Part shown: piece by piece, positions 14,638 to 41,000 of the stretch
Layout: each line of letters opens with the position of its first letter
How positions within the stretch are numbered: the stretch's first letter is position 1
Source of the DNA: a virus
Length of the DNA: 43,323 nt
Strand: one strand, 5' to 3'
Virus record (IMG/VR): IMGVR_UViG_3300045119_000031
Coordinates: 1 to 43,323 of that record
Notes under the pieces: generated by a model
Told to the model about the DNA's origin: nothing
The model's input: only the letters and a program-made list of their open reading frames with translations
Database searches by the model: none
Position numbers and translations under genes: made by a program

Positions 14638-15008
14638 GCGAGGTCGCCGCGGTGCGCGCGGAAATTCGCGCCTTCGTCGAAGGGGCTTATTGCCCTGACG
14701 ACCCCAGGCTCAAGGCCAAGCTCCTTGCTTGGGCTGACCGGCTCGAGCGCGAGAAGGCAGTGCAGAAGGTCGCCGGGGTCAAGCGCTCGCCCGAGCAGAT
14801 CGCGCGCGACAATATCAGGATCTTGGAAACCAAGATCGGATGGCCTCATTTGAAGCTGCAAGAGATCTCAGACCGCTCGCGAATGAACAATATCGGGCGC
14901 GTGTCGGAGTGCCTCAACTGGGCCAAGGCGAACTTCGCCACCAACGAGGAAGCGTTGCAGAGCCTGCGGGAGACTGTCGCCAAGAGGTATCGCGATGAGC
15001 CAGCTTGA
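14634..15008 (+). CDS. Hypothetical protein, 124 aa
   Basis: The ATG at 14634 overlaps the previous stop and follows GAAGGGG. Helical; the central part (SPEQIARDNIRILETKIGWPHLKLQEISDRSRMNN) could be a small helix-turn-helix. It overlaps the helicase start by 14 bases. Unrecognised. Confidence 0.72.
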   Translation: MSEVAAVRAEIRAFVEGAYCPDDPRLKAKLLAWADRLEREKAVQKVAGVKRSPEQIARDNIRILETKIGWPHLKLQEISDRSRMNNIGRVSECLNWAKANFATNEEALQSLRETVAKRYRDEPA

Positions 15009-16431
15009 TCCCGTGCAGATCGAGGCGCTCAACTTCTCGTCTGGAAAGAAAGGCGTCGGTTTCTTTCTGGAGCAAGGGCTTGGGAAGACGCTGATCGCGC
15101 TGACCGAGTTCTCGTTCCTGCACTCGACCGGCCAAGTCGACCGGATGGTCGTGGTCTGCCCCAATACGTTCAAAAGGGGGTGGATCGACGAGATCGAGAA
15201 GCACGGGTTCCAGTTCGACACGCACGTTTGGAGGTCGACCAAGAAAACCGCCGCCGCCGCCTTCCTCAATCTCCGCCATCACCCCAAGGGGCCGCCGGTC
15301 CTGATCATCAACTATGACGCGGCGCGGATGGGCGGCGTCCTCCGGGCGCTCCAGATCTGGGCGGCGCGCGGCAACGTCTACCTGGCGATAGACGAGTCGA
15401 TCCAGATCAAGGGGCACAAGAGCCTCCAGACCAAGGCGATCCACGCCCTTGCCCCGCTATGCCAGTTTACCCGCCTCCTGACCGGACGTCCCCAGACGCA
15501 AGGGCCGCATGATCTCTGGGGCCAGCTGCGCGCCATCGGTCTTTTTCAGATCACCAATTTCTATGCCTTCCGCGGTCGTTATTGCGTGATGGGTGGGTGG
15601 AATAACAAGGAGGTTTTGGCGGCGCAGAACACCGAGGAGCTTGCCGCCTTCATGTCGCGATCCGTCTTCCAGGCCAAGAAGGCCGACTGGCTCCCGACGC
15701 TGCCGCGCAAGGACTACACGATCCGCGACTACGAAATGTCCGACGATCAGCGGCGGCAATACAAGCAGATGGAACACCAATTCTTATTGGAGATCGAGAC
15801 GGGGGTCGTCACGGTCGACATCGCCATCGCCAAATACGCCAAATTGGCCCAGATCCAATGCGGCTTCATCTACGACGAGGACAGGATCGTCCATGAACTC
15901 GTTACTCCGCAAGACAATCCGCGGCTTAATTTGCTGCTTCAAATCCTCGAGGAGGAGGTCTCCGGTAAAGCCTGCGTCGTCTACCGTCACCGAGCCATGC
16001 TCCCCTTTCTGGCCCAGACGCTTAGGAAATGGTCGCCGGCGTGGATCAAGGGCGGGATGAAGCCCGACGAGGTCGCGGACCAGAAGATCCGGTTCAACGA
16101 GGATCCGGCCTGCCGCATCATATTGCTGCAATGCGACGCAGCTAAATACGGCCATACCTTGCTTGGCGGACCCGGCGAGGACGACAGGTGCCGCACCATG
16201 CTGTTTTTCGAGAACTCCTACTCGGCGGACACGCGGGACCAGATCGAGGACCGTATTCATCGCCGTGGACAGACTGGCGACGCCGTGCTGTACATTGACC
16301 TCTCGGGGTCTGATCTGGATCGGCGTATCGTCAAGGCGTTGCAACGCAAGGACGCGCTCTATCGAAGCGTTTTCAAAAACCTCCGGGTGGCGGAGCCGAC
16401 CGTATCGGCTGATGAAAGGATTGCATCATGA
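14995..16431 (+). CDS. SNF2-like superfamily 2 helicase/ATPase
   Basis: 478 residues with helicase motifs in order: Walker A GLGKT (28-32), motif Ia near VVVCPNTFKRGW, Walker B LAIDES (about 130-135, a DES variant of DEAH), motif III LTGRP (162-166), and motif VI EDRIHRRGQ near residue 430 with the arginine finger. This is the SNF2/DEAD-box-like order, short for SNF2. Such phage enzymes translocate on double-stranded DNA or help recombination and repair. Neighbours include a PD-(D/E)xK nuclease and the PEP-CTERM gene, which overlaps its stop. Confidence 0.9.
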   Translation: MSQLDPVQIEALNFSSGKKGVGFFLEQGLGKTLIALTEFSFLHSTGQVDRMVVVCPNTFKRGWIDEIEKHGFQFDTHVWRSTKKTAAAAFLNLRHHPKGPPVLIINYDAARMGGVLRALQIWAARGNVYLAIDESIQIKGHKSLQTKAIHALAPLCQFTRLLTGRPQTQGPHDLWGQLRAIGLFQITNFYAFRGRYCVMGGWNNKEVLAAQNTEELAAFMSRSVFQAKKADWLPTLPRKDYTIRDYEMSDDQRRQYKQMEHQFLLEIETGVVTVDIAIAKYAKLAQIQCGFIYDEDRIVHELVTPQDNPRLNLLLQILEEEVSGKACVVYRHRAMLPFLAQTLRKWSPAWIKGGMKPDEVADQKIRFNEDPACRIILLQCDAAKYGHTLLGGPGEDDRCRTMLFFENSYSADTRDQIEDRIHRRGQTGDAVLYIDLSGSDLDRRIVKALQRKDALYRSVFKNLRVAEPTVSADERIAS

Positions 16432-17126
16432 AAAGACTGCTTTTGACAACCGCGTTGCTCGCAGCTGTCGGGGCAACGCCGGTGCGCGCCGCGGATAGCG
16501 CGCTCACGATCTGGAACACCGCCAATCCCGGCGGCGCAGAGTCGGCCAACGGCACGGGCGGGGCCAGCATCCTGTCGTCGAACCTGGGCGGGGTCACGGT
16601 ATCGGTCAGCAGCGTCCAGCGCGGGATCAATCCCAACGATCTGACCGAGGCCAATATCAGCATCGACAACACGACCGGCACGATCCAGACGATCAAGATC
16701 ATCGCCGGGGCGAATGGCTATGTCGGGCCGTCTGATCTGTTCACCTTGACCGGGGCAATTGGAGCGACGCTGGGCGGGTCTGAACTGATGGGGCAGTTCT
16801 TCACCGACCAGGGCAACACGCTCAATGGCAACTCGAGCCTCGCCGTGACCGGAACCCAGATCGGGTCTTTCGACTCGGGCGCGCTCACTGGACCGGAGTC
16901 GTTCGCCTTCAACGGCAGCGGGATCTCCTCGCTGCTCACCCCTTACGGGCTGGCCGAGGAGCTGACGCTGACGCTCGCGCCGGGGGCGACGGTGTTCATT
17001 CAAGGTATGTCGATGGACGCCAACGCGGTGCCAGAGCCGTCGACTTGGGTTATGATGGGCGGCGGGTTCGCCATTCTCGGTTTGTTGGGGTTGCGTAAGC
17101 GTCGCGTACCGAGGTTCGCCGTCTGA
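16428..17126 (+). CDS. Exported PEP-CTERM protein carried by the phage
   Basis: 232 residues with an N-terminal signal peptide (MKRLLLTTALLAAVGATPVRA, cleavage near 21) and a C-terminal sorting signal: VPEPSTW at about 201-207, a hydrophobic stretch (GGGFAILGLLGL) and a basic end RKRR. This tripartite tail is the PEP-CTERM signal processed by exosortases, here a PEPxxW version known from alphaproteobacteria. The mature part is Ser-, Thr-, Gly- and Asn-rich and reads as beta strands. No exosortase is encoded in the window, so processing would rely on the host. It overlaps the helicase stop by four bases, so it is translated with the replication operon. Surface or matrix role is inference. Confidence 0.85.
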   Translation: MKRLLLTTALLAAVGATPVRAADSALTIWNTANPGGAESANGTGGASILSSNLGGVTVSVSSVQRGINPNDLTEANISIDNTTGTIQTIKIIAGANGYVGPSDLFTLTGAIGATLGGSELMGQFFTDQGNTLNGNSSLAVTGTQIGSFDSGALTGPESFAFNGSGISSLLTPYGLAEELTLTLAPGATVFIQGMSMDANAVPEPSTWVMMGGGFAILGLLGLRKRRVPRFAV

Positions 17127-17148
17127 TCCCCTTCAAGGCGGCGGATAC

Positions 17149-17291
17149 GGGGGAGGGGTGCCGGACTCGCGGTTCACATCCTTCCCCCGGCGTCCGTGAC
17201 AGTTTCGGCTCCGTTGGCAGGTGGACGTAAACAGGGTGCTAAACGGACAGGGGGAGGGGATTGGCTACCGCACCTTCCGAGCCCCTCCCCC
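17149..17291 (+). other. G-rich intergenic region with repeated decamer and hairpin
   Basis: GGGGGAGGGG occurs at 17149-17158 and again at 17250-17259; the second copy pairs perfectly with CCCCTCCCCC at 17282-17291 over a 22-base loop. It lies between the PEP-CTERM gene and 17336 (209 bases without a gene). It may act as a terminator-like or G-quadruplex-forming structure; no T-tract follows. Confidence 0.55.
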
Positions 17292-17335
17292 ACCGTACCA
17301 TTCTCACGCTGCGCGATTTGCGGAGGACTGACGCG

Positions 17336-17701
17336 ATGGACGGCGAGGGACCGGAAATGATGGTCGAGGACGCCAAGCGTCGTCTGGAAGTGCGGATCGA
17401 CAGGGCCAGCCATGTCGGCGCAGTCGCCATCGATGCCGCCGATATTCTTACAGTCATGCGCGAGCTTGGGCGGGTAACGGCTGCGCTGGAGAAAATAGCC
17501 AAGACTACAACGTGGTCGGATGCCGTAGATATAGCTGACGCCGCCCTCGCCGCAGAACCCGCTAGCGGGGAGGCGGGGGACTACGACCTGAAATGCGTCA
17601 ATGGTCACGACAAATGCTACGAAGGCCCGTTTGACGGATGTCCATACTGCGTGCGCGTTCCTGCCGCCCCTCCACCCCCGCCAACGCAGGGCGAGGGATA
17701 A
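17336..17701 (+). CDS. Hypothetical protein with C-terminal Cys cluster, 121 aa
   Basis: The ATG at 17336 is chosen because GGAGG lies nine bases upstream; an upstream in-frame TTG (17261) falls inside the hairpin region. N-terminal two thirds helical, with AADILTVMRELGRVTAALEKI. Then KCVNGHDKCYEGPFDGCPYC, four Cys and one His suited to a zinc finger, and a Pro-rich end APPPPPTQGEG. The stop TAA shares its final base with the next ATG. Unrecognised. Confidence 0.72.
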   Translation: MDGEGPEMMVEDAKRRLEVRIDRASHVGAVAIDAADILTVMRELGRVTAALEKIAKTTTWSDAVDIADAALAAEPASGEAGDYDLKCVNGHDKCYEGPFDGCPYCVRVPAAPPPPPTQGEG

Positions 17702-17805
17702 TGAGCCTCGCTGAGTACGCCCTCGCCGCAGCCGCAATAATTTATGCTGTCGGCATCGCTATGCTGTCGGCATCGCTATTTATCCGCGCCCGTATCGCGC
17801 CATGA
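17701..17805 (+). CDS. Tiny membrane peptide, 34 aa
   Basis: Its ATG begins on the last base of the previous stop (TAATG) and its stop overlaps the next ATG (ATGA). It encodes one hydrophobic segment with Ala and Ile (AAAIIYAVGIAMLSASLFI) ending in Arg residues, typical of a single-pass membrane peptide. It contains a 17-bp exact tandem repeat. Coding is supported by the coupled arrangement, not by a recognised family. Confidence 0.55.
   Translation: MSLAEYALAAAAIIYAVGIAMLSASLFIRARIAP
17744..17777 (+). repeat. 17-bp exact tandem duplication
   Basis: ATGCTGTCGGCATCGCT occurs at 17744-17760 and again at 17761-17777 with no difference. Because 17 is not a multiple of three, loss of one copy would put the 34-residue frame in phase with the next one and fuse them into about 80 residues. 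Confidence 0.9.
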
Positions 17806-17960
17806 GCAGCGTCATCGGGATCGCCGCCGGCATGGGGCTACTGCTCGTGTCGCTCGCCACGCGCAACGACGACACGGTTGTCCCTTGGATTACCGGATGG
17901 CTGGGCGTGCTTCTGGTCGTCGCCGGGACGGGCAAACTGTTCTTTTTGGATGAACGCTAA
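17802..17960 (+). CDS. Small membrane protein, 52 aa
   Basis: Starts in an ATGA overlap. Two hydrophobic segments (VIGIAAGMGLLLVSLA and WLGVLLVVAGTGKLFFL) flank a charged turn RNDDTVVPW, so it probably has two membrane helices. Size and topology fit a small holin-like or accessory membrane protein, but it lies at the end of the early block, away from the endolysin. Unrecognised. Confidence 0.6.
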   Translation: MSSVIGIAAGMGLLLVSLATRNDDTVVPWITGWLGVLLVVAGTGKLFFLDER

Positions 17961-18022
17961 TGGAAGTATTTTTGGTATGCGTCGCCTTCGTGTGGATTGG
18001 CATGTGCATCTTTGAACTTTGA
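17960..18022 (+). CDS. Possible 20-residue hydrophobic micropeptide
   Basis: MEVFLVCVAFVWIGMCIFEL, a single hydrophobic segment. Its ATG shares a base with the previous TAA (TAATG), and its stop abuts the stop of the first late gene on the other strand. No ribosome site of its own; translation would depend on coupling. Confidence 0.35.
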   Translation: MEVFLVCVAFVWIGMCIFEL

Positions 18023-19615
18023 TCACTGCCCAAACATGTACGGGAAGACGTAGGGCGATAGCGAGCCTGGGATCGCGGTGACAGGGTTAGGCTTGCCGTC
18101 GCCGGCGCTCAACATGCCAAAACCCATCCGCTTCCCTGTCTCCGCCAGCATCGCCTCTGGATTGCTTGGCGCTTGGCCGGTCATCGACGGATACGCGCCA
18201 TAGATCGAGCGCCGCGCGCCCGCCGGACCCGAGACGGCCCGCCCCACGTCGAGCGCCGCGCCGGCAGCGGCCCCGGCATAGGGGTGTCCCATGTAAGCTC
18301 CCGCGCCGCCCGCGATACCTGTCGCCCAAGGGCGGGTCATCCCCGGCGCGGCGCTGCCTGACTGCCCAATCGCGGTCAACGCATCCTTCTGATCTTGGTT
18401 GTAGAACCCGGGACTGTTCTTCAACGTCTTCTGCGCGTCGCCCGCCGGCATGTTGCCGAAAGTCCCGAGATCGTTGTCCATCCCCTCGAGCATCTCGGCG
18501 TTCTTGAACAGCCCATGATCGGCATTCGCCTGATTGAACTGCTTCACCACGCTGGGTGCGGTGTTGTTCAGCGGCGGCAAGCCTTGGTATGAATTGGTGA
18601 ACATGTCTTTCGCCTGGCCCGCCGAGGCGGCGTCCATCCCGCCATCGTTTATGACGTTGCCGAGCTTCTTGATCTGGGTATGGATCGCGCCCGCCGTCGT
18701 CGGGTCGTTGTTGGCGTGGTTGGTCGCCAGATCCTTCCTAAATTGCTGGATGATGGCGTTGGTTCTGGGCGAGTTGGAGCGCGTCGTCGGGTCCGACAGA
18801 ACGGCATTGTCGATGGCGTCATTCACGTTCGCAACGTGAGGCGTATGGTACTTGTTGGCGTCCAAGGTCTGAAACGAGGCGTCGGCGTTCGCCTTTGCGT
18901 TTTGCGTGACCTCAGAGGCCGAAAGCGGAGAGCTGACCTTTGGCAGAGAGTTGGGGTCGACCCCAGTCTTCTTGACCAAGGACGCCAGGTAGTCGCCCAC
19001 CTTGGGAACGTACTCCGTCGCCGCCTTGACGGCGTTGGGAGCATACTTGCGCGCCAACTGGTAGCCGCCCTGTAGCGCACCCGGCAAGCCGACGCCGACC
19101 GCCGCGCCGGTGCCTGCGCCAATCAGAGTGTCGAGCGGCGTTCCCCCATGTTCATAGGCGTGCCACCCGCCGGTGATCCCGCCCTCGAGGCCAGACCACG
19201 CCAGACCCGCTCCCTTGCTGATCTTGCTCATCGGGTTGGCGATGTTCGCCATCGTCCGAATGCCGATATTGCCGCCGGTCCCGAGCTCGTCGCTGGCCTG
19301 CTGGGTCGAGGCGCGCGCGGCGTCTGGGCCAGACGGGGCGAGCCGCTTGTCATATGACCCGTGCGTGAACTCGTCGGTGAAGACGCGACCGATATTCTCG
19401 CCGCCGCGGACGATCTGCTTGCCGGCCTTGAACAAGGCGGTCCCGACCGAGTCGTCCGGGCCGACAGTCGGAAATGGATCCGCCGCCATCTGCTGCTTCA
19501 AGCCGGTCTGCACGGCTTCGGGCCGCTGCACGGGCGTCGTGGTCGAGCCGCCTCCGGTCGAGGCCGGCTTTACGCCGCGCGCCTTATTGATCTGGTCTTC
19601 AAGGCTTTCGGCCAT
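18023..19615 (-). CDS. Putative internal virion/ejection protein, 530 aa
   Basis: Last late gene. The ATG at 19615 (MAESLEDQ) is preferred over an upstream in-frame TTG; GAGGA lies 9 bases before. Helical, Ala- and Gly-rich. Residues about 160-190 have a glycine-rich hydrophobic stretch (GTPLDTLIGAGTGAAVGVGLPGALQGG) that could insert in membranes; another is near 420-450 (GIAGGAGAYMGHPYAGAAAGAALD). These are usual in podovirus internal proteins ejected with DNA. No enzymatic motif seen. Position after two similar virion genes supports the call. Confidence 0.65.
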   Translation of the reverse strand: MAESLEDQINKARGVKPASTGGGSTTTPVQRPEAVQTGLKQQMAADPFPTVGPDDSVGTALFKAGKQIVRGGENIGRVFTDEFTHGSYDKRLAPSGPDAARASTQQASDELGTGGNIGIRTMANIANPMSKISKGAGLAWSGLEGGITGGWHAYEHGGTPLDTLIGAGTGAAVGVGLPGALQGGYQLARKYAPNAVKAATEYVPKVGDYLASLVKKTGVDPNSLPKVSSPLSASEVTQNAKANADASFQTLDANKYHTPHVANVNDAIDNAVLSDPTTRSNSPRTNAIIQQFRKDLATNHANNDPTTAGAIHTQIKKLGNVINDGGMDAASAGQAKDMFTNSYQGLPPLNNTAPSVVKQFNQANADHGLFKNAEMLEGMDNDLGTFGNMPAGDAQKTLKNSPGFYNQDQKDALTAIGQSGSAAPGMTRPWATGIAGGAGAYMGHPYAGAAAGAALDVGRAVSGPAGARRSIYGAYPSMTGQAPSNPEAMLAETGKRMGFGMLSAGDGKPNPVTAIPGSLSPYVFPYMFGQ

Positions 19616-19617
19616 GA

Positions 19618-21120
19618 TCAATAATCCTCGTATCCGGCTTCCATTCCCTTAAACAGGATCTTGCCGCTGTACTTCCCAAAGGCGGGCCCGGCCTTGTAGG
19701 CCTGCCCGTATGGAAGTCCGTCGAGATCGGCTTGGCTGTTCACCGGCTTTGGCTGGGCCCACGGCGGCAAGTTCTTGAGCGCGTCCGGTCCCTCGAGGAA
19801 CGACGGGTCGATCTTGGGCCGATACTGGATCGGCAGGCTGTCGAGGTTTCGCGCCTCGCCGTGCGCGTTGGTCATCGCATGGGCGATGCTGTTCTTTACC
19901 TTGTTGACGCGCCCCATGTAGTCGTCGACGGTTCCGCTGAATGTTCCAAGCTGATCGGCAGCGTTGCCGAGCCGCATAGCCTCTTGCTGCGACAGCCGCT
20001 GCCCAGGCATTTGAGTCTTGAAATTGGAGGCGTAATCTTGGAGGTGGAGTTGCCGCAAATTGGAAACCGCTGCCGCCTCCTCGTCGGTGAGGGCCGCGCT
20101 TAATCCTCCGGTATAGTAAGTGGCTGGATTGACGCCCTTGCCGTCCCAATTGAAGATCGCGCTCGCCGCCATCTTCTTGCTCTGGCTCCCCAGAATGCTG
20201 GCGATAGCCGCCTTCGACGCATCGGATGACGCTTCGTCCGCCAAGGTATTCATATTGTTGAGCTGCGTCTTCAACCCCGGCAGTTGCAGCTCGATCTTGT
20301 GCGCGTCCTCTGTCTCCTTGGCCGCTTGGGCGTGCTGGTTCTTCCAGTCAAGAGGATCCATCGGCGCTCGTCCCGCCGCTCTTTCACGCGCTGCATACTG
20401 GTAGTAGGCCGCATCTTCCGGGTTGCCTCCGACCGAAGACATCAGGAGATCGGGCGGCATACGCGCGTCGACCGCCGCGGCGATGTCCTTGTCGCTCATG
20501 GTGGGGTTGTCGCGCTTCATGCTCGCCGTCAACTCGGCCTTCGCCGTGTTGTAATCTTTCACTTGGGGGGTCTGCGTCACGTTGCTGCCGAAAGCGGTGC
20601 CCATCGAGTCCACGAATGGCTTGCTGTCCATCAGCACCCGAGCCTGATCGTCGGTCACATTGATCCCGTGATCGCGCAGAGCCGAGGCGAAGACCGCGAC
20701 GTTGGCGTGAAATCTCGCGTACTCGTTTTGATCCTGCACCTGTTTCTGGATGCCCATGATGTCGGACACGTCGCCTATGCCGCCGCCGCCCGCGCCTCCG
20801 CCCGTGCCGTGAAGCTGCGCCTGCTTCGATTGCTGCTGCTGCGCGGTGCCGAAACCCGCCGAGATCTCGCCAAGCCCCTGTTCCAGCCCCTCCGCCGCAC
20901 GCGCCCTCCGCTGCCGTTCCAGCAGCAGATAAGCCAGGTTGGCGCTGACCGGATCCTGCTTATTTACCGCAGCATTCGGCAGGGTTGGCGAGCCAGAAGT
21001 CGCGGGCTGCTGCCCCTGCTGCGCCAACGGATTAGGGTTGGGCGTGATCGCGGTGGCGAGATCCATGTTCGCATTGGGGTTCGTGAGCTGATTGATCATG
21101 TCCCCGATAGGCGCAGCCAT
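19618..21120 (-). CDS. Putative internal virion protein, 500 aa
   Basis: Rich in Ala, Gln, Asn and Asp with long helical stretches and a Gly-rich linker (GTGGGAGGGG) near residue 110. The N-terminus is Pro/Gln-rich and probably flexible. The C-terminal part (WAQPKPVNSQADLDGLPYGQAYKAGPAFGKYSG) is a structured tail of a type seen in phage internal proteins. No catalytic motif. Lies between other virion genes; its start overlaps the previous stop by one base (TGATG). Confidence 0.65.
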   Translation of the reverse strand: MAAPIGDMINQLTNPNANMDLATAITPNPNPLAQQGQQPATSGSPTLPNAAVNKQDPVSANLAYLLLERQRRARAAEGLEQGLGEISAGFGTAQQQQSKQAQLHGTGGGAGGGGIGDVSDIMGIQKQVQDQNEYARFHANVAVFASALRDHGINVTDDQARVLMDSKPFVDSMGTAFGSNVTQTPQVKDYNTAKAELTASMKRDNPTMSDKDIAAAVDARMPPDLLMSSVGGNPEDAAYYQYAARERAAGRAPMDPLDWKNQHAQAAKETEDAHKIELQLPGLKTQLNNMNTLADEASSDASKAAIASILGSQSKKMAASAIFNWDGKGVNPATYYTGGLSAALTDEEAAAVSNLRQLHLQDYASNFKTQMPGQRLSQQEAMRLGNAADQLGTFSGTVDDYMGRVNKVKNSIAHAMTNAHGEARNLDSLPIQYRPKIDPSFLEGPDALKNLPPWAQPKPVNSQADLDGLPYGQAYKAGPAFGKYSGKILFKGMEAGYEDY

Positions 21121-40035: not shown

Positions 40036-40602
40036 TTAGCCCAGGGCTTCCTTGAACGAGTGATAATATCCGGCAATCAGATCGGCCTTGTCCAGCCCGT
40101 TCACAATCTTGCGCGCGTTGACCGGGTCTTCGGTGTCGGCGTCAAAGAACTGCGGCAACCCGACGCCGGTGAACCACCCATTGATCATGCCATCGTAAAG
40201 CACCAGCGCGCTCGGCTCGTCCTCGAGCATCCGGTGCGGATACTCGACGCACGGGACGTCGAGATCATAGGTGTTTTTGAGGATTTCTTCGGCCTTGACG
40301 TAGTTTTCATGCCACGTCAGCTGCACGAAGCCGCGGCCATAATAGCACTGGTCAAATTCGCCCGCCGGCTCGCCGTAGGACTTACCAGAACCGCGGCCAT
40401 ACTCCTCAATCGGGCGCATCTCTTGCGCCGTCTCGTGAAAAGCGGTGGCGAGCGCATAAGCCAGCCACCGCAAGTCTCGATCTGGGTAGAAGTTCTCCCA
40501 GGTGTCGAGAAGATAGTTCATTCCATCAACCTGACGCTGGCTCAGAACGCCGTTGAAGACGCTCGCCCGTATCGTGTCGAAGAAATGGTCGCGATCAATC
40601 AT
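40036..40602 (-). CDS. GH19-type endolysin
   Basis: 188 residues. FHETA at 55-59 with catalytic Glu57 and YYGRGFVQLTWHENY (87-101) are signature motifs of glycoside hydrolase family 19 enzymes, which phages use as endolysins to cleave peptidoglycan glycan strands. No signal peptide is visible, so release would depend on a holin; candidates are the small membrane proteins at 33946-34572. It lies between the portal and a GHP-repeat protein, outside the membrane-gene group. ATG start overlaps the previous stop. Confidence 0.9.
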   Translation of the reverse strand: MIDRDHFFDTIRASVFNGVLSQRQVDGMNYLLDTWENFYPDRDLRWLAYALATAFHETAQEMRPIEEYGRGSGKSYGEPAGEFDQCYYGRGFVQLTWHENYVKAEEILKNTYDLDVPCVEYPHRMLEDEPSALVLYDGMINGWFTGVGLPQFFDADTEDPVNARKIVNGLDKADLIAGYYHSFKEALG

Positions 40603-41000
40603 TTTGGCTGCGGGAACGTCGCCGGATCATACGCCTTGACCGTCCACTCTACAACGTCAGGCCGCTTGATGGCGACGATCACCTTGTCGTCGTAAGGCTC
40701 GGGCAGATAAGCCGGAAGCGGAGGATTGATGGTGTCGGGAGGAACCGGCTGGCCGCTGACGTGACCATAACCAGGAAGTCCCTGGTCGGGGTGACCCGGC
40801 GCGCTCGGCAGTCCATGATCTGGGTGTCCCGGGTGATAAATCGGGCCGCCGCCGACATAGTTGGGCGGAACAGGCAGTCCGTGGCTCGGATGGCCGGGAT
40901 GATAGATAGGCCGGTTGCTGGCGTGGCCCGGGGGACCGCCGGGAAGAGTGTTGTCGATTTGCCCGCCCTCGAGCGGGATGATCCAATAGGCTTGCGGCAT
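40599..41000 (-). CDS. GHPxxGLP-repeat protein, 133 aa
   Basis: Contains repeated PIYHPGHPSHGLP and PIYHPGHPDHGLP units plus GHPDQGLP, then a Pro-rich part and a short ordered C-terminus (YDDKVIVAIKRPDVVEWTVK). Phages commonly carry such a protein with Pro, His and Gly repeats near head genes, but the function is not known. The repeat region is probably extended. GGAG precedes the ATG. Confidence 0.75.
   Translation of the reverse strand: MPQAYWIIPLEGGQIDNTLPGGPPGHASNRPIYHPGHPSHGLPVPPNYVGGGPIYHPGHPDHGLPSAPGHPDQGLPGYGHVSGQPVPPDTINPPLPAYLPEPYDDKVIVAIKRPDVVEWTVKAYDPATFPQPK

Follow-up and report, generated by a model that had tools for sequence, protein, structure and literature searches.

An exchangeable phage gene for a PEP-CTERM protein, a probable surface cargo for the host exosortase

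Introduction

Why would a phage encode a protein whose tail is addressed to a bacterial sorting enzyme? So far, exosortase sorting has been viewed as a matter of bacterial biofilms and exopolysaccharide. In the published model, a PEP-CTERM protein is exported, anchored temporarily, recognized by exosortase and then released or attached outside (PMC1569441; PMC12188702). Most of the bacterial PEP-CTERM genes described in 2006 were single-gene units with long upstream regions (Haft 2006, PMC1569441). The gene considered here lies in an operon of a 43,323-base virus record, the whole of which was analyzed and is referred to as the window; the phage has been seen only as environmental DNA. We ask what this gene is, whether it belongs to the phage, and what the phage might gain from it.

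Results

The gene and its product

The gene (16428..17126, + strand) encodes a protein of 232 aa, P0001, which we place in family A; it is defined by its ORF, its PF07589 and TIGR02595 matches and its homologues, and the ORF translation bears out the coordinates, frame and strand of the initial annotation. A likely ribosome binding site, GAAAGGA (16414..16420, +), is found in the sequence 7 nt 5' of the ATG, within the helicase gene. The product starts with a Sec signal peptide (residues 1–21, MKRLLLTTALLAAVGATPVRA, ending in VRA; 16428..16490, +), identified by inspection and by its conservation in all homologues. An ectodomain of 179 aa follows (16491..17027, +), which belongs to no known family in our searches and is predicted to form a beta jelly roll. 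Residues 201–232 consist of VPEPSTW, a hydrophobic stretch, RKRR and VPRFAV, the C-terminal tail being VPEPSTWVMMGGGFAILGLLGLRKRRVPRFAV. Within it, the VPEPSTW motif (17028..17048, +) is covered by the PF07589 and TIGR02595 matches, and the hydrophobic segment (residues 208–222; 17049..17093, +) and the basic cluster RKRRVPR (17094..17114, +) can be read directly from the sequence.

PF07589 matched P0001 with 26.2 bits (E 7.7e-6; cut-off 20.7) and TIGR02595 with 23.7 bits (cut-off 16), and in a six-frame search of the record with PF07589 this gene was the sole match (30.4 bits, E 2.8e-8). With a tail that scores above both curated cut-offs and an N-terminal Sec signal peptide, P0001 is a PEP-CTERM protein (PF07589/TIGR02595), and the signal peptide and complete VPEPSTW, hydrophobic and RKRR tail described in the initial annotation are upheld. 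The PEPxxWA-CTERM model NF035944 stayed below its cut-off (27.5 vs 35 bits), which leaves P0001 outside that subclass. (Most phage members end in R[FLI]A[VIL], such as RFAV, RLAI or RIAV, as at 17112–17123 of the window; the bacterial tails that were compared have other ends.)

Position in the phage genome

The record has portal, major head protein, terminase, scaffold, endolysin, primase, helicase and DNA methyltransferase families. Replication genes occupy the + strand up to 17126, and virion genes the − strand from 18023. The record is a podovirus-like genome, with the PEP-CTERM gene at the 3' end of the presumed early operon; which genes are early and which late is inferred from their strand layout. 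The gene had been described as phage-encoded and as part of the early operon; both points hold, and it lies at the end of this early-type operon. Judged by portal, Ochrobactrum phage OH and Sinorhizobium phage phiM5 are among the nearest isolates.

Directly upstream is a DNA helicase gene (14995..16431, +; phrog_62, E 8e-93), the stop of which overlaps the PEP-CTERM gene through ATGA. This part of the proposed coupling to the helicase is real in the window, but the coupling is positional and does not imply joint action: in relatives, gaps of 15 bp to ~1 kb follow the helicase, sometimes with an intervening gene, and the exact ATGA occurs only in the window. Since the gene overlaps the helicase, expression as part of the operon is likely, and because it sits in an operon, unlike most bacterial PEP-CTERM genes, its expression should follow the phage programme. 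A promoter and terminator scan for the gene gave no site above chance.

Downstream, the remainder of the cargo interval (17127..18022, no strand assigned; from the ORF layout) precedes the convergent late operon and holds a small ORF without family (17336–17701, +). It has no second PEP-CTERM gene, in contrast to many relatives. The last gene of the late (virion) operon (18023..19621, −) borders the site, as judged from the ORF layout and from comparison with empty sites, and the distance from the helicase to the late operon is 1.6 kb. Elsewhere in the window, a proline- and glycine-rich protein (40599–41000, −) adjoins the endolysin; similar proline-rich genes lie between the helicase and the PEP-CTERM gene in loci L014 (4574–5245), L018 (3955–4617), L020 and L021.

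A recurrent cassette with exchangeable ectodomains

Twenty-eight relatives of the helicase were fetched, and loci were counted, the window included, when the helicase was at least 50% identical and at least 2.5 kb downstream was readable. One or two PEP-CTERM or PET-variant genes lie on the same strand within ~3 kb in 18 of the 21 such loci among IMG/VR relatives, some of which are near-identical; when identical helicases are counted once, 15 of 18 have PEP-CTERM(-like) genes. The remaining loci, L012, L032 and L033, have no PEP-CTERM gene downstream of the helicase or elsewhere in their records. In Ochrobactrum phage OH, the helicase is separated from the convergent late operon by 125 bp and no gene lies in the junction, and in L032 the gap is ~60 bp, again with no cassette; the site is empty in L012 as well. 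Because the site can be empty, it is a cargo site at an operon junction, and proximity to the helicase is positional rather than functional evidence.

The ectodomains of the cassette genes fall into nine BLAST groups, all with a PE-x-x-TW-type tail. Family A, that of the window, is homologous to the L013 type (hhalign 98.5%); the merging of families A and B was rejected (hhalign probability 0.1%). Certain pairs recur, namely A+C in L003, L005 and L009, A+D in L004 and L006, and A+E in L007 and L008 (C and D merge into a single group in the nine-group BLAST grouping). The genes are also found between terminase and portal or endolysin (L004, L072, L106), near the primase (L079), and upstream of a VRR-type nuclease and helicase (L074, L110). 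Family A extends to phages with different terminases: L008 encodes an integrase and L009 has a different terminase family, and the cassette therefore crosses phage lineages. The gene is accessory at one site and has spread horizontally; it is a swappable phage cargo, or moron. The initial annotation, which treated a single gene, missed the recurrence of the cassette, its swappable nature and its presence at several loci and in phages unrelated to one another. The swapped ectodomains and the frequent presence and absence of the cassette fit changing selection at the cell surface.

In several members, PEP is replaced by PET or PEI (VPETSTW, IPETQTW, VPEIPTW), at L014 (5326–5976), L015, L018 (4698–5348), L017 (12643–13437) and L009 (tail at 2626). 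These are otherwise normal members, possibly reflecting a different exosortase specificity or decay. In the second PEP-CTERM gene of L008 (10765–11586), the ORF ends in a frame other than that of the tail, and so there is either a real frameshift or a sequencing error. The second genes of L003/L005 and of L004/L006 have near-identical tails (GFGLLGLVGWKKRGARLAI) on divergent ectodomains, a pattern that suggests exchange between tails and ectodomains.

Homologues and selection

In a scan of 2.9 million viral contigs, P0001 had seven homologues in other contigs at 43–61% identity, and all seven keep both the signal peptide and the tail; loss of the tail in close relatives, which had been named as evidence against the idea, is not seen. 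Among family A homologues, dN/dS is 0.16–0.53. This, together with retention of the tail in seven other viral contigs, excludes a chance ORF or tail.

Between the window and L003–L008, pN is 0.11–0.15 in the tail and 0.32–0.36 in the ectodomain, at similar pS. Purifying selection, as estimated from these alignments, is strongest on the tail, which is more constrained than the ectodomain. The constraint is only partly specific to the motif, since any hydrophobic segment is constrained; the PE-x-x-TW residues lie outside the hydrophobic segment and are kept across families. The tails of L080 and L009 are more divergent than those of the other homologues, which counts against sorting, as does the occurrence of PET or PEI at some loci.

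Exosortase and the host

Exosortase (PF09721) was not found in the window record, in agreement with the earlier remark that none is nearby, nor in any of 34 related viral records, some of them fragments. With a full PEP-CTERM tail and no phage exosortase, sorting must depend on the host. A scan of bacterial genomes found proteins that share mainly the tail and have different ectodomains, mostly in Bradyrhizobium and other Hyphomicrobiales. Exosortase was present in 17/17 of the tail-sharing bacterial genomes tested, compared to 52/385 alphaproteobacteria, a result that is partly circular since tail-bearing genomes are expected to have exosortase.

Which bacterium is the host? Of the few groups compared, Hyphomicrobiales come closest to the record in tetranucleotide usage, which is a lead only. 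DNA matches to 297 genomes of Bradyrhizobium's family were short and at chance level, and the flanks read for the two best-scoring ones (L130, L131) held no CRISPR-like repeats. The best match of the L008 integrase, at 47%, is not discriminating. The ectodomain profile A3 had no match in 397 genomes of Bradyrhizobium's order or 385 of its class, samples that include no known positive. Searches by tblastn gave no match for P0001 in plasmids, and none in isolated phages for P0001, a consensus-like tail or a family B protein, the short tail being a weak query for BLAST. PEP-CTERM genes also occur in IMG/VR records with isolate-genome-like identifiers, namely L088, L096 and L104 (2751185896_000001) and L089, L099 and L107. 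Record 2751185896_000001 has several such genes and may include host DNA; L089, L099 and L107 share one common protein and could be prophages.

The ectodomain

The AlphaFold model of the ectodomain is a confidently predicted all-beta jelly roll (pLDDT 86.4, pTM 0.83). Among the folds listed, its neighbors are carbohydrate-binding modules (CBM4, CBM61), tailspike C-terminal domains and surface adhesins (Epf), at Z 8–9, which is near the level reached by unrelated models in a comparison that covers the listed families only. The ectodomain sequence has no convincing Pfam or NCBIfam family and no match to a carbohydrate-binding module, and full-length P0001 has no PADLOC (defence-system) match and no PHROGs family. 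A weak floc_PepA match was discarded, as it rests on the tail and the ectodomain alone matches nothing. (The family B model, with pLDDT 39.5, was not used.) The jelly roll quite possibly binds surface glycans; this is only inferred from the model, because the fold scores lie near background and there is no convincing family match.

Discussion

What does the phage gain? The product of 16428–17126 is probably a surface cargo sorted by the host exosortase. Sec would export P0001, and the tail would hold it temporarily in the inner membrane. The host exosortase would recognize the PEP motif, process the protein and sort it to the outer surface or the exopolysaccharide, with release or attachment outside, as in the published PEP-CTERM model. 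We consider this processing rather likely. The carbohydrate-binding-like jelly roll might then bind or cover surface glycans, and the infected cell would become inaccessible to other phages. The findings suggest a phage moron that alters or masks the surface of the infected cell. Superinfection exclusion is the preferred benefit, with adhesion or aggregation next, but even exclusion is proposed with considerable doubt. The broadest form of the proposal, that exchangeable PEP-CTERM coat proteins exploit the host exosortase and shield infected cells of exosortase-bearing bacteria, as a new route of surface remodelling and superinfection exclusion, is similarly tentative.

Sorting by exosortase could also serve another end, by changing cell–cell or cell–matrix adhesion (flocculation, biofilm, exopolysaccharide retention) of infected cells or lysogens rather than blocking phages. 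PEP-CTERM proteins have published roles in floc and biofilm formation (PMC9850573, PMC12188702), the cassette is present in an integrase-bearing phage, and the fold neighbors include adhesins. On the other hand, most carriers belong to a podovirus group in which no integrase turned up, there is little time for community behavior to change during a lytic infection, and the ectodomain loses its floc_PepA match once the tail is removed. We consider this somewhat unlikely.

A simpler possibility is that the tail is a mere transmembrane anchor, which would hold a periplasm-facing protein in the inner membrane, where it could block DNA entry or envelope stress without any exosortase. A signal peptide, a C-terminal hydrophobic segment and a basic end would anchor any protein, processing by the host exosortase is a deduced step in our scheme, and some relatives have PET for PEP. 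VPEPSTW would be superfluous in a plain anchor, however, whereas PE-x-x-TW has persisted in nine ectodomain groups that are unrelated to one another, and no part of the protein is more constrained than the tail. A mere anchor is accordingly improbable.

Less probable still is a decoy, by which the exosortase would be flooded with substrate, leaving host surface proteins unsorted and detaching the exopolysaccharide. A gene placed in a phage operon should escape control by the host (cf. Haft 2006, PMC1569441), and ectodomains vary while the tail is kept, but a decoy would have no need of a folded ~180-residue ectodomain under purifying selection. It is very improbable that the phage picked up a host gene passively and recently, or that host DNA was wrongly assigned to a virus record, in either case without any function for the phage. 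The tails are indeed similar to those of Bradyrhizobium proteins, and among the IMG/VR pattern hits there are some that appear to be host sequence (record 2751185896_000001), but the same site is used in many contigs with conserved synteny and purifying selection, virion and replication genes lie on the same contig, and the ectodomain has no homologue among the 397 genomes of Bradyrhizobium's order and the 385 of its class that were searched.

If sorted surface cargo is the correct reading, a phage lineage that keeps PEP-CTERM cargo and swaps its ectodomains, with no exosortase of its own, makes the host exosortase a phage resource. The cassette gives a starting point for studying how phages alter the surfaces of uncultured bacteria. 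It is also a clue for host prediction, in that an exosortase gene is to be expected in the host, and it supplies small natural substrates on which exosortase function can be tested.

Relation to known systems

Gram-positive phages encode LPXTG-type proteins that are anchored by sortase. These, too, carry a phage-encoded C-terminal signal for a host sorting enzyme, but the LPXTG system is Gram-positive, links proteins to the cell wall, and uses an enzyme and motif unrelated to exosortase and PEP-CTERM. The lipoproteins Cor and Llp are examples of phage morons that alter the cell surface or exclude superinfecting phages. Another is SieA of P22 (PMC10883804), and the cassette resembles this class in being swappable cargo outside the core modules with an exported product. 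SieA, Cor and Llp take lipoprotein or inner-membrane routes, whereas P0001 has a signal for the host exosortase and is a candidate, at most, for exclusion.

The bacterial PEP-CTERM/exosortase (EpsH) proteins (PF07589, TIGR02595; Haft 2006, PMC1569441) share the signal peptide, PEP motif, hydrophobic segment, basic C-terminus and divergent ectodomain. P0001 differs in that it is phage-encoded, lies inside an operon, has an ectodomain of no known family and has no exosortase or exopolysaccharide genes nearby. CBM4, CBM61, tailspike C-terminal domains and the Epf adhesin domain resemble most of the ectodomain in their beta jelly roll (Z 8–9, near background), but there is no sequence similarity, and binding by P0001 is suggested by a model. 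The closest isolate, Ochrobactrum phage vB_OspP_OH (Wolominvirus; helicase 43.5%, portal 39.7%), has the same order of helicase and convergent late operon, but without a gene in its 125-bp junction.

TIGR03118 proteins, which have a putative exosortase-interaction domain, were reported as transferred genes in Yellowstone hot-spring viral contigs (PMC11003980). These are viral contigs as well, but the report is a one-sentence mention without locus, cassette or mechanism. Beyond it, our literature search, with most subscription journals and bioRxiv outside its coverage, found no published phage PEP-CTERM cargo. The parts are of known kinds, and a phage-borne, exchangeable PEP-CTERM cassette appears to be undescribed in the literature searched.
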